Shown in pieces: positions 18,590 through 39,041 of a stretch of DNA of 64,000 nt (its first letter is position 1; each line of letters begins with the position of its first letter). Origin of the DNA: Gemmatimonadaceae bacterium. Its GTDB lineage: Bacteria; Gemmatimonadota; Gemmatimonadetes; Gemmatimonadales; Gemmatimonadaceae. The position numbers and the translations under genes are program-made. The notes beneath the pieces were generated by a model. The model was not told the DNA's origin and searched no databases. It worked only from the letters and a program-made list of their open reading frames with translations. The DNA lies in the NCBI GenBank assembly GCA_019752115.1, contig JAIEMN010000024.1, positions 186,001-250,000 on the forward strand, written 5' to 3'.

Positions 18590-18606
18590 GTGGGGTTGAG
18601 CTGATC

Positions 18607-18702
18607 GCACAGAGGGCACAGAGTCACAGAGAACACTGAGGCGCGCTCCGGATGGTTTCGGAGCGCGCCTCAGTGTTCTCTGTGACTCTGTGTGCTCTGT
18701 GC
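18607..18702. repeat. Long word-repeat hairpin (element 1)
   Basis: Two 44-base arms (18607-18650 and 18659-18702) are inverted copies with two mismatches around an 8-base loop. Each arm is built from repeats of CACAGAG-like words followed by a GC-rich clamp GGCGCGCTCCG. It lies between the convergent ends of the GH3 gene and etfD and could terminate both. The left flank reads GAGCTGATCGCA, nearly identical to the boundary of element 3. Confidence 0.85.
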
Positions 18703-18724
18703 GAGCAGTTCCCAGCAAGTCTTC

Positions 18725-36019: not shown

Positions 36020-36099
36020 ACCCACAACCCACGACCAAAAACACGAAACCCTAAACTGATCGGTTTAGGGTTTCGTGTTCTAGGTCGTGGGTTGTGGGT
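36020..36099. repeat. Long word-repeat hairpin (element 2)
   Basis: Two perfect 17-bp stems separated by a 3x3 internal loop: ACCCACAACCCACGACC with its inverse, then AACACGAAACCCTAAAC with its inverse, around the loop TGATCG. It lies between the convergent ybdD and MFS genes, and its right arm encodes the last residues and stop of the MFS gene. Low-complexity A/C-rich arms like these differ from ordinary terminators in the window. Confidence 0.88.
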
Positions 36100-37279
36100 G
36101 ACCGGCGGCTATTCGGACGGTTGCCATCCATACCGCCGCCAGGGCCAGCGACGCGCCCATGCTGAAGGCGGCCGCCGAGTTCCAGCGTGTCCACACCGCC
36201 CCGAAGAGCACGCTCGCCGGCAGTGCGGCGGCGCCGATGAGACCCTGGTACCAACCGAAGGCGGTGCCGCGATGGGTGGGGCCGACGACGTCGGCGATGA
36301 AGGCCTTCTCGGTGCCCTCGGTGAGGCCGAAGACGAAGCCGTAGACGGTGAAGAGCGCCCAGGCGTGCCAGGTGCTCGTGGCGAGCGCGAACCCGGCGTA
36401 GACGGCCGCGTAGAGCAGCCAGCCGCTCACGATGAGGGGCTTTCGCCCCACGCGATCGCTGAGGGCGCCGCCGGGGGTGCTCGACGCGCTCTTCACCACG
36501 TGCAGCGCGACCCAGAGCAACGGGATGAGCGGCGTCGGCACGCCGAGCTGCGAGGCGCGCAGCAGCAGAAAGGCGTCGGTGGAGTTGCCGAGGGTGAAGA
36601 GCACCACCGGGCCGACCACGTGCCAGAACGCGCGTGGCAGGGGCGTCGCGGGCTTCTCCCGTGGCTCGCGCACGACGAAGGTGCGACCGGGCGATTCGGC
36701 CACGAAGCGGAGCGCCACCAGCACGGCGAACACTCCCGGGACCGCCGCGACCCAGAAGACCTGACGGAGGGGGAGGTGCCACCAATTCAGACAGGCGAGG
36801 GCGATCAGCGGCCCCACCACGGCGCCGAAGTGATCGGAGGCGCGATGGAAGCCGTAGGCCCGCCCCCGATGCTCGGGCTCGGTGGATTCACCGATCAGCG
36901 CATCGCGGGGCGCCCCGCGGATCCCCTTGCCGACACGGTCGATGAGGCGGATCATGAGGACCTGCCCGCCGGTCTGCGCCACGGCCACCAGGGGGCGGAC
37001 CAACGAGGCGATGCTGTAGCCGGCCACGATGAGCGGCTTGCGCCGCGCCGCACGGTCTGACCACCATCCGCTGGCGAGCTTCAGAAAAGACGCCACGGCC
37101 TCGGCCGCGCCTTCGATCACCCCGACCATCTGCACCGACGTGCCCAGCGTCCCGACCAAGAAGAGCGGCAGCAGCGGCGCGATGATTTCGCTCGAGGCGT
37201 CGGTGAGCAGGCTCACCGCCGAGAGCGCCAGCACGTTCCGCGACGGCCGCCAGCGCGTGGGAGGAGTGGGTGATGTCAC
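36080..37279 (-). CDS. MFS transporter
   Basis: A 399-residue major facilitator with 12 predicted helices. The N-terminal motif LLTDASSEIIAPLLPLFL in helix 1 and GWWSDRAARRKPLIVAGY in the loop between helices 2 and 3 (motif A-like) identify the family. DRVGKGIRGAPRDALIGE is a strong feature of a subgroup often annotated as MFS permease of unknown substrate. The GTG at 37279 lies inside the 5' end of the divergent peptidase gene. A GTG just before LALSAVSLL would avoid the overlap, so the exact start is open. Confidence 0.9.
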   Translation of the reverse strand: MTSPTPPTRWRPSRNVLALSAVSLLTDASSEIIAPLLPLFLVGTLGTSVQMVGVIEGAAEAVASFLKLASGWWSDRAARRKPLIVAGYSIASLVRPLVAVAQTGGQVLMIRLIDRVGKGIRGAPRDALIGESTEPEHRGRAYGFHRASDHFGAVVGPLIALACLNWWHLPLRQVFWVAAVPGVFAVLVALRFVAESPGRTFVVREPREKPATPLPRAFWHVVGPVVLFTLGNSTDAFLLLRASQLGVPTPLIPLLWVALHVVKSASSTPGGALSDRVGRKPLIVSGWLLYAAVYAGFALATSTWHAWALFTVYGFVFGLTEGTEKAFIADVVGPTHRGTAFGWYQGLIGAAALPASVLFGAVWTRWNSAAAFSMGASLALAAVWMATVRIAAGHPQPTT

Positions 37280-38478
37280 CTGAAGTGCTGGCAGCGCCCG
37301 GTCGTGGCGCCGATCCGGAGTGGCAAACCACTCTGTACGGCGCGTGGCGGAAACGTCGGGCGTGGGTGCTCGACGAGCAGGTGGCGCTGGCCGATGTGCC
37401 GGCGCCCACCGGGAACGAAAGCGCCCGGGCCGATCACCTGCAACGGCGATTCCACCACATCACGGGGCTCGATGTCACGCGCGACGCGGTGGGCAATGTG
37501 TGCGCCACCGTGTCACCACGCGTGGTGGACGCCCATCGCGCCGCCCCCGTGGTGTGCCTCGCGCATCTCGACACGGTCTACGCCAATGGCGTCCCCACGC
37601 CGATGCATCGTGAGGGGTGGCACGTGCGCGGGGCGGGCATTGGCGACAACGGTCGTGGTCTTGCCGCGCTGCTCACGCTGGCGCACGCGCTCCAGGCGCC
37701 ATCGATCCGTCAGCGCCTGCAACGCCCGGTGCATCTCGTGGCGACGGTCGGCGAGGAAGGCGAAGGCAATCTGCGTGGCGCGCGCCACTGGTTCGACAGC
37801 GCCAGCGAGGCCGGCATCGTCCCGGCCGCCGCGATCGCCATCGATGGTCCGGGCGACGACGCGATCATTCATCACGCGGTCGGCTCACGCCGCCTCCGTA
37901 TCACGTTGCGCGGACCGGGCGGCCACAGTTGGGTGCAGCAGCAGGTCGCCAACCCGCTGCATGCGCTGGGCGGCCTGCTCACCGCCATCGCCGCCCTCCA
38001 CGCCGACGGTCAGCGCCGTCCGCACGAGCGCACGACGGTCCAGGTCACGCGCATGCACGGCGGCGAGTGCCTCACGGCGATCCCGCGCGAAGGCTGGCTC
38101 GATGTGGACCTGCGTTCCTCGTCGGAAGCGGCGCTGACGCGCGTGCAGCAGGAGCTGGTGCGCCTCGCCCACGCCCATGCGCGGGGGCTCACGATCGCGC
38201 TCAGCCCCCTCGGCGACCGCCCCGCGGGCGCACTCGCAGCAGATCACCCCCTCGTGCGACTCGCCGCCGCCTGCACCGAGCGCGTCGGCCGAACGCCACG
38301 CGCAGCGATCGCCTCAACCGATGCGAACGTCCCCCTCGCCCGAGGCATCCCCGCCCTCGCCATCGGCGCCGGCGGCACCGGCGGTGGCGCGCATACGGAA
38401 GCCGAGTGGTACTCGGACGAGCACGCGGAACTGGGGTTGGAGCGCGTCCTGCGCCTGGTGGTGGCGCTGGCGGCGTAG
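37273..38478 (+). CDS. M20-family metallopeptidase
   Basis: A 401-residue dizinc aminoacyl-peptidase or amidohydrolase. ATG 37273 is preferred over the adjacent GTG because GGAGGAG is spaced correctly before it. Zinc-site motifs: CLAHLDTVYANG (His about 98), GAGIGDNGRGLAALL (bridging Asp), TVGEEGEGNLRGAR (catalytic Glu and ligand Glu), AIDGPGDD, and the last His in GGAHTEAEW. The dimerisation domain is present (about 200-310). The physiological substrate is unknown; a peptidase T-like or ArgE-like role is possible. Confidence 0.9.
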   Translation: MSPEVLAAPGRGADPEWQTTLYGAWRKRRAWVLDEQVALADVPAPTGNESARADHLQRRFHHITGLDVTRDAVGNVCATVSPRVVDAHRAAPVVCLAHLDTVYANGVPTPMHREGWHVRGAGIGDNGRGLAALLTLAHALQAPSIRQRLQRPVHLVATVGEEGEGNLRGARHWFDSASEAGIVPAAAIAIDGPGDDAIIHHAVGSRRLRITLRGPGGHSWVQQQVANPLHALGGLLTAIAALHADGQRRPHERTTVQVTRMHGGECLTAIPREGWLDVDLRSSSEAALTRVQQELVRLAHAHARGLTIALSPLGDRPAGALAADHPLVRLAAACTERVGRTPRAAIASTDANVPLARGIPALAIGAGGTGGGAHTEAEWYSDEHAELGLERVLRLVVALAA

Positions 38479-38480
38479 GA

Positions 38481-38590
38481 TTGAACTGATCGCATCCAAG
38501 ACATCCAAGAGATCCAAGGCGTTCAAGGGGGCGTCTCGCCATGCTAAGGAGACTTGGATCCCTCGGATGCCTCGGATGTGATCAGTTCAA
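38481..38590. repeat. Long word-repeat hairpin (element 3)
   Basis: Arms 38481-38519 and 38552-38590 form an inverted repeat of about 39 bp around a 32-base middle. The outer boundary is TTGAACTGATCGCA / TGTGATCAGTTCAA. The arm interior is a near-tandem series of ATCCAAGA/G words. Nearly all mismatches between arms are A/G transitions, so RNA from the minus strand would keep G-U pairs. It sits between two plus-strand genes. Confidence 0.85.
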
Positions 38591-38636
38591 CACCGGCCAG
38601 TGACATCGCGATGACGCGAAGGCATAGCCTGAGAGC

Positions 38637-39041
38637 ATGTCCTCCGCCAATTCCCTGATCGAGCTCGTCACTCGCATCGCCATTGATGTGCACAAGGAGC
38701 TCGGCCCTTCACTGCTCGAGTCTACCTACGAAGCCATTTTTGTAGACGAGCTCCGACTCGCTGGTTGCCAGGTCGCCACCCAGGTCCTGCTTGCGGTCCC
38801 ATATAAGGGACGGGTCTACCAGCAGGCGTACCGGCTCGACATGCTCCTCGAGAACCAACTGGTGGTCGAGCTCAAGTGCACTGAGCGAGTGGCGCCGATC
38901 CACAGCCGCCAGGTCCTCACCTACCTGCGCTGCCTCAAGCTGCGGCACGGGCTTGTTGTGAACATGGGGCTCGAGCGGGCCATTGATGGCATTGATCGCG
39001 TGGTGAACTTCCGCGTGCCGCCTGAGCCGGGCGACAGCTAG
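38637..39041 (+). CDS. GxxExxY protein
   Basis: A 134-residue protein with the family signature GPSLLESTYE near residues 23-32 and a PD-(D/E)XK-like core: YRLDMLLENQLVVELKCTE, with Asp and the E-x-K pair. The family is widespread in environmental bacteria and its nuclease activity has not been established. It begins just after hairpin element 3. Its last four bases overlap the convergent galactokinase-like gene. Confidence 0.9.
   Translation: MSSANSLIELVTRIAIDVHKELGPSLLESTYEAIFVDELRLAGCQVATQVLLAVPYKGRVYQQAYRLDMLLENQLVVELKCTERVAPIHSRQVLTYLRCLKLRHGLVVNMGLERAIDGIDRVVNFRVPPEPGDS

Follow-up and report, generated by a model that had tools for sequence, protein, structure and literature searches.

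The short-word hairpins described here, together with two families of small genes, probably constitute a class of small mobile units with gene-less solo derivatives, which is apparently undescribed and apparently widespread in bacteria. This reading is carried by the linkage of hairpins to genes, the correspondence between words and genes, empty sites in related species and the dispersal of multiple copies.

Three hairpins and one gene-bearing unit

The window, which is the whole stretch of 64,000 nucleotides that was analysed, belongs to the genome of a Gemmatimonadaceae bacterium (own genome, G000; a draft of 83 contigs). A preliminary description of it had reported three hairpins with arms made of tandem variants of a short word, different each time. 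All three were recovered with arms of this kind, and the word does change between families. The relevant features of the window are as follows.

18598..18711, no strand: element 1, solo hairpin, word CACAGAG, boundary GAGCTGATCGCA / CGAGCAGTTC
36020..36099, no strand: element 2, solo palindrome, word ACCCACAA/ACCCACGA, apex AAACTGATCGGTTT
37270-38478, + strand: M20 peptidase gene, one neighbour of the element 3 unit
38481..39041, + strand: inserted unit (element 3 hairpin plus GxxExxY gene), from the gap comparison with congeners
38481..38590, no strand: element 3, hairpin, word (C)ATCCAAGA in tandem, 34-nt loop
38483..38492, + strand: left boundary of element 3, GAACTGATCG, a genome-wide repeat
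38580..38588, - strand: right boundary of element 3, GATCAGTTC, inverse of the left boundary
38637..39041, + strand: GxxExxY protein gene, 134 aa, profile match to PF13366 / TIGR04256
39038-40636, - strand: galactokinase-type gene, other neighbour of the element 3 unit

Element 3 is a real hairpin bounded by a motif and its inverse, as had been described: its arms (38481-38518 and 38553-38590) comprise 38 nt each and are 87% complementary, and its termini are TTGAACTGATCGCA / TGTGATCAGTTCAA. It ends 46 bp upstream of the GxxExxY gene. The gap between the M20 peptidase gene and the galactokinase-type gene measures ~565 bp in the own genome compared to 15-111 bp in 16 congeners with a readable junction, and two further congeners carry a different sequence there. 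A second copy of the element 3 family on contig C20 (L276:2528-2627) matches element 3.

Element 1 lies between convergent genes and matches the arms of a distant GxxExxY locus of the same genome (L001 on contig C7; E 3e-32). Its site is empty in four congeners and holds a different word in the congener G044. Element 2, a clean insertion directly after a stop codon with a clean empty site in four congeners, matches the arms of a PF05635 locus (L317 on contig C62; E 4e-11). The reported AACTGATCG at its apex is genuine, the palindrome AACTGATCAGTT being found at the apex or at the ends in the ACCCACAACCC family to which element 2 belongs. Inside-out forms of this family were also observed (L273:15636-15737 and L281:6699-6814 compared with window 36020-36099), in which AACTGATCAGTT occupies either the apex or both ends. 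Comparison of loci with and without the element thus gave empty sites in relatives for elements 1, 2 and 3; all of these are comparisons between species, and the observed evidence of insertion is comparative.

The assumption that elements 1-3 form one family with a drifting word was rejected. Elements 1 and 3 represent two GxxExxY-type families and element 2 an IVP-type family (PF05635), and their common feature is the end motif only.

Genome-wide distribution of hairpins and boundary motif

Hairpins were counted in a 464-kb genome sample including the window and complemented by pattern searches. The sample contained 38 hairpins with a score of at least 17, compared to none in a Markov-shuffled sample, and we estimated by extrapolation that the genome holds ~400 of them. 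Genome-wide, the boundary GAACTGATCGCA had 20 exact occurrences and 84 when up to one mismatch was allowed, whereas the pattern read backwards (up to one mismatch) gave 8 matches; many of the matches are inverted pairs ~100-125 bp apart which bound hairpins. Hence, other copies do exist and the shared boundary is not due to chance. This confirmed the proposed kind of repeat, in which the boundary stays constant and the word varies: the boundary is repeated throughout the genome, the words are family-specific and a gene is linked. The motif CTGATCG, originally regarded as the boundary, is by itself common here (39 occurrences in the window, 18.6 expected), so that it is the longer GAACTGATC(G/A)CA which is informative as a boundary. 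Hairpin ends in the own genome are mostly GAAC...GTTC, and AAC...GTT ends recur in several word families and with both gene types.

The gene context of the 38 hairpins, scored with a simple custom gene caller, was convergent in 20 cases, tandem in 14 and divergent in none, with three hairpins inside called ORFs and one at an edge. Hairpin sites therefore prefer the 3' ends of genes. No target duplication was detected for 35 elements (mean direct repeat 0.60, compared to 0.61 for mismatched flanks), which argues against an ordinary DDE transposase.

Mismatches in element 3 had been described as mostly A/G transitions that preserve G-U pairing in RNA. This interpretation failed, as G-T and A-C mismatches showed no strand bias in the hairpins of the own genome (41 versus 61, inconsistent within hairpins, p 0.30) or at the GxxExxY genes of the genus (111 versus 107). 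Across phyla, the bias in gene sense was weakly opposite to wobble (69 GU-type versus 104 AC-type mismatches). Selection for an RNA hairpin through G-U wobble was consequently rejected.

GxxExxY genes and their arms

The GxxExxY protein of the window matched PF13366 / TIGR04256 with 108 bits, well above the cut-offs of 22 and 35. Based on the Pfam match it is predicted to have a PD-(D/E)XK nuclease fold; its best match among solved structures was weak (4ic1, E 0.096). The residues D68, E78, K80, Q92 and Y96 are invariant in 62 homologues, with D68, E78 and K80 forming the triad. This pattern (D68, E78-x-K80, Q92, Y96) suggests a putative RecB/Cas4-like nuclease acting at or near the arms. In the accessible parts of the open-access literature, GxxExxY proteins are mentioned only in passing and no role is known.

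Among the eight GxxExxY genes of the own genome, seven have word-repeat inverted arms at one or both ends and one (L006) is without arms. At some of these loci the gene sits in the loop of the inverted arms, and the arms of one locus (L007) contain terminator-like stems. At 40 further loci of the genus, 18 short-loop hairpins fell within the 500 bp that follow the 3' end of the gene, corresponding to a density of 0.90/kb compared to 0-0.17/kb in the other 500-bp bins out to 9.5 kb. Across phyla, arms spanning the gene were present at 40 of 66 loci compared to 19 of 438 shifted control placements (score 16), and at 29 of 66 loci compared to 3 of 438 placements at score 20; the 66 usable loci cover many phyla. 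In all of these counts, related loci are not independent. Typical arms are TCTCGCAAAGGCGCAAAGGC, CACGCAGAGACGCAGAGGCGCAGAG and ACCACAGAGTCACAGAGACACAGAG, and the unit of gene and arms has a median length of 490 bp. One locus (L098) displays a higher-order repeat of ~50 bp which extends over more than 300 bp on each side.

A second gene family with word-repeat arms

As several hairpin families, including that of element 2, did not fit the words of GxxExxY genes, PF05635 (23S IVP/S23) was tested as a guess. Gene-spanning word arms were found at 19 of 20 IVP loci (7 of 114 control placements) and, across phyla, at 21 of 27 sampled loci (0 of 54 controls); the locus L321 of the own genome is without arms. 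PF05635 was present in 24 of 25 GxxExxY-bearing genomes of other phyla. To our knowledge, IVP has no nuclease motif, so that the principle common to both families would be recognition of the arms rather than cutting. We found no report in the open-access literature linking IVP to inverted repeats or word sequences to genes.

In the cyanobacterial genomes analysed, IVP genes lie between arrays of heptamer type (AAAGTCA, GTTGTCA, GGGGCAT). In one cyanobacterial genome, three GGGGAYT heptamers in a row occurred 1334 times, compared to 0 for the reversed control, and the words at its two IVP genes (GGGGCAT and ACAAGGG) are related to this heptamer in type, not identical to it. Inverted word arrays, some of them very long, were seen at IVP genes in cyanobacteria and in the genus (among L410-L414 and L324-L334). 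The own genome contains a single reverse-transcriptase domain (G000:C7:116018-116635), for which a link to IVP/Avd-like proteins is possible.

Words follow proteins

The period of the arms differs between the two gene families, being 8 nt (also 9, 10 and 16) for GxxExxY (lag 8 z 14, lag 16 z 10) and 7 nt (also 14) for IVP (lag 7 z 23, lag 14 z 12.5). Within the genus, NRAG words accompany 20 of 20 GxxExxY genes of the VHRxLGPG type (VH) and 0 of 17 of the VYNxLGWG type (YN), which carry GGAT/GGAA words in all 17 scorable cases, with 6 ties. The difference between VH and YN is significant (Fisher 6e-11), with word classes that were defined after inspection of the arms; the Mantel test needs no classes and is thus the fairer one. 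It revealed a correlation of words with proteins both in the genus (rho 0.41) and across phyla (rho 0.20), with p 5e-4, the minimum possible with 2000 permutations, and with rho ~0 for control DNA. Part of this covariation may stem from arms and gene being inherited together as one unit.

For most of the 38 sampled hairpins, a single gene locus of the own genome has matching arms, and some dispersed solo copies resemble the resident locus over ~100 bp. An independent example from another genome agrees with this. The congener G044 has, between the same two flanking genes as element 1, a hairpin with the word ACGCGAAG; its sole full-length GxxExxY gene, looked up after the hairpin had been seen, carries ACGCGAAG arrays on both sides. 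One intergenic site (L248:10129-10191 compared with window 18598-18711) holds different words in two species, each fitting the resident GxxExxY gene. Such a site may reflect either a preferred site or a word swapped in place.

Four word families (CGGAAGCTG..., GAGAACCGAGAGCC..., ACGTATGCGCCC and GCAGAGAAAAGGAG) have no matching gene among the GxxExxY and IVP genes found, and a third gene family may stand behind their hairpins, which are located at:

L277:11189-11347
L279:6221-6336
L284:18403-18514
L284:3521-3618
L274:15808-15986
L286:1810-1885

A probable IS110-family element within hairpins

A long repeat with at least 9 copies is located inside element-3-type hairpins (GAACTGATCACATCCAAG|...) and breaks the assembly. 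Its sites and relatives are:

G000 contig ends C12, C15, C20, C26, C29, C49, C58, C82 (L337, L339, L342-L346): sites of the long repeat
L371:3627-4742 and L372:3615-4676: relatives of the long repeat

Judged by these relatives, the repeat appears to be an IS110-family element, which is likely to target the hairpins. Elements of the IS110 family use palindromic repeats (REPs) as insertion targets (PMC1525189, PMC11208160), so that this element is likelier to exploit the hairpins as a parasite than to move them. As it lies within the hairpins and thus uses them as a target, IS110 was rejected as the agent that moves them.

Proposed mechanism and alternative explanations

A full mobile unit of ~0.45-0.7 kb would consist of one short gene between two inverted arrays of a short word, the gene encoding either a GxxExxY nuclease-fold protein or an unrelated S23/IVP four-helix-bundle protein. 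The protein family would determine the word period (8 nt, also 9-10, in the case of GxxExxY and 7 nt in that of IVP), and the word sequence would depend on the gene lineage. Solo hairpins such as elements 1 and 2, estimated at several hundred genome-wide, would derive, like MITEs, from gene-bearing units of their own genome and lack the gene. As for word recognition and the chemistry of movement, we infer that the protein binds the word array, which would keep the words uniform within a unit and allow units and solo derivatives to reach new sites as copies. In the case of GxxExxY, DNA at the arms or close to them, perhaps extruded as a cruciform, would be cleaved by means of the nuclease triad, and completion of the copy at the new site would be left to host repair. 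Since two unrelated proteins share the same arm architecture, the nuclease activity of GxxExxY would not be the whole mechanism. The simplest idea for the set-wise change of words would be slippage and gene conversion under selection for binding; template copying is a possible source of word change, and growth of the arms by template copying or slippage is likewise possible.

With slightly less than even confidence, we extend this proposal to the view that the two unrelated families, GxxExxY and S23/IVP, independently run the same selfish unit, in which the protein fixes the word length and all words change their sequence collectively along with the protein, and that the intergenic heptamers, octamers and nonamers repeated in many bacteria, so far without explanation, originate from such units. 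If true, such a collective change of words would be an unusual example of co-evolution between a repeat array and its presumed binding protein. The word-repeat units would also offer an origin for abundant short-word intergenic repeats that were reported without explanation. GxxExxY and IVP/S23 genes occur in many of the searched genomes from many phyla, and their placement in units gives both a testable function.

An unlikely alternative, although the best of the others, is that the arms are operator or terminator arrays by which the protein controls itself and that solo hairpins are bidirectional terminators at gene 3' ends, with nothing mobile by itself. The predominance of convergent (20) and tandem (14) over divergent (0) contexts and the terminator-like stems in the arms of L007 agree with this, but solo copies at scattered sites are similar to a single resident gene locus, in some cases over ~100 bp, relatives have clean empty sites, and the stems are long and imperfect, most of them without a T run.

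Slightly less probable still is mobilisation in trans, with the units as passengers of an unrelated enzyme which reads the common ends GAAC...GTTC. Such an enzyme would account for AAC...GTT ends in several word families with both gene types, and the IS110-family element with its at least 9 copies within element-3-type ends could be a candidate for it, were it not the likelier parasite as judged from its known target preference (PMC1525189, PMC11208160). Moreover, arms and genes co-occur in other phyla too, although no GAAC end is apparent in the arms there, and the fact that word and period follow the protein is left unexplained.

Quasipalindromes can acquire uniform words and arms by slippage and template switching. 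Neutral growth of this kind anywhere in the genome, with the genes being incidental, would explain the uniformity of words throughout a unit and of its arms; however, in many phyla the arms concentrate strongly at two gene families and have a family-specific period, which refutes neutral growth as a complete account, and we consider such an account very improbable. Slippage and quasipalindrome correction may nevertheless be the process that homogenises the words within the proposed mobile units.

The least probable explanation is dispersal of the palindromes by the Y1 HUH transposase of a REP/RAYT (BIME) system. Palindromes dispersed at gene 3' ends, a gene-bearing parent and absent target duplication would suit it. 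However, the REP/RAYT-type transposase for which the preliminary description had suggested a test had no match (PF01797) in the own genome in a search that was positive in 5 control genomes, the linked genes being GxxExxY (PF13366) and 23S-IVP (PF05635). Unless the assembly lacks the contig in question, this explanation is refuted for the own genome.

Comparison with known systems

The proposed units resemble REP/RAYT systems (REPtrons, BIMEs) in having a gene flanked by inverted palindromes in addition to many gene-less intergenic ones; dispersed short intergenic palindromes related to the gene-flanking ones are indeed present in the own genome. Both lack target duplications and both are targets of IS110-type elements. 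Unlike REP/RAYT systems, the units described here are without a Y1 HUH transposase, their gene encoding a PD-(D/E)XK-fold protein or a four-helix bundle, and their arms are tandem short words which vary in sequence between units, with a period that follows the protein family. The tetranucleotide GTAG/GGAG was not found at the foot of the palindromes, where the own genome mostly has GAAC...GTTC.

Like MITEs, the solo elements are short, gene-less inverted repeats which have their ends in common with a gene-bearing parent of the same genome. They differ from MITEs by the absence of target duplication and of an identified DDE transposase parent and by an arm that is mostly a tandem word array.

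S23 is known mainly from rRNA. The intervening sequences (IVS) of 23S rRNA likewise have the S23 (PF05635) gene within the loop that a long inverted repeat forms; this arrangement was found for the family of element 2 (parent L317) and at 19 of 20 sampled IVP loci, whereas elements 1 and 3 go with GxxExxY genes. In contrast to these IVS, the units lie between protein genes rather than in 23S rRNA, their stem is an array of 7-nt words, and a second, unrelated gene family shares the architecture. A screen for Rfam families, rRNA included, gave no match in the window holding the three elements; the IVP loci of the own genome lie outside that screen. The IVS of Coxiella, which has a terminal stem of 28 bp, has been regarded as a selfish element that may once have been mobile (PMC4990558).

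Heptameric intergenic repeats were described as GGGAATC in Xanthomonas and GGGGATT in Nostoc (PMC4692102) and as TAACTGA in Beggiatoaceae (PMC4679880); the Xanthomonas and Nostoc heptamers are rare between divergent genes (PMC4692102, PMC4679880), and a repeat-binding protein was proposed as a possible mobile element (PMC4679880). As far as the accessible text of these two papers (PMC4692102, PMC4679880) extends, no linked gene is reported and the terms S23 and intervening are absent. To the same extent, the arrays described here resemble these repeats in their intergenic 7-nt words, which partly form inverted pairs, and differ from them in having a linked gene, as cyanobacterial IVP genes are located between such arrays.
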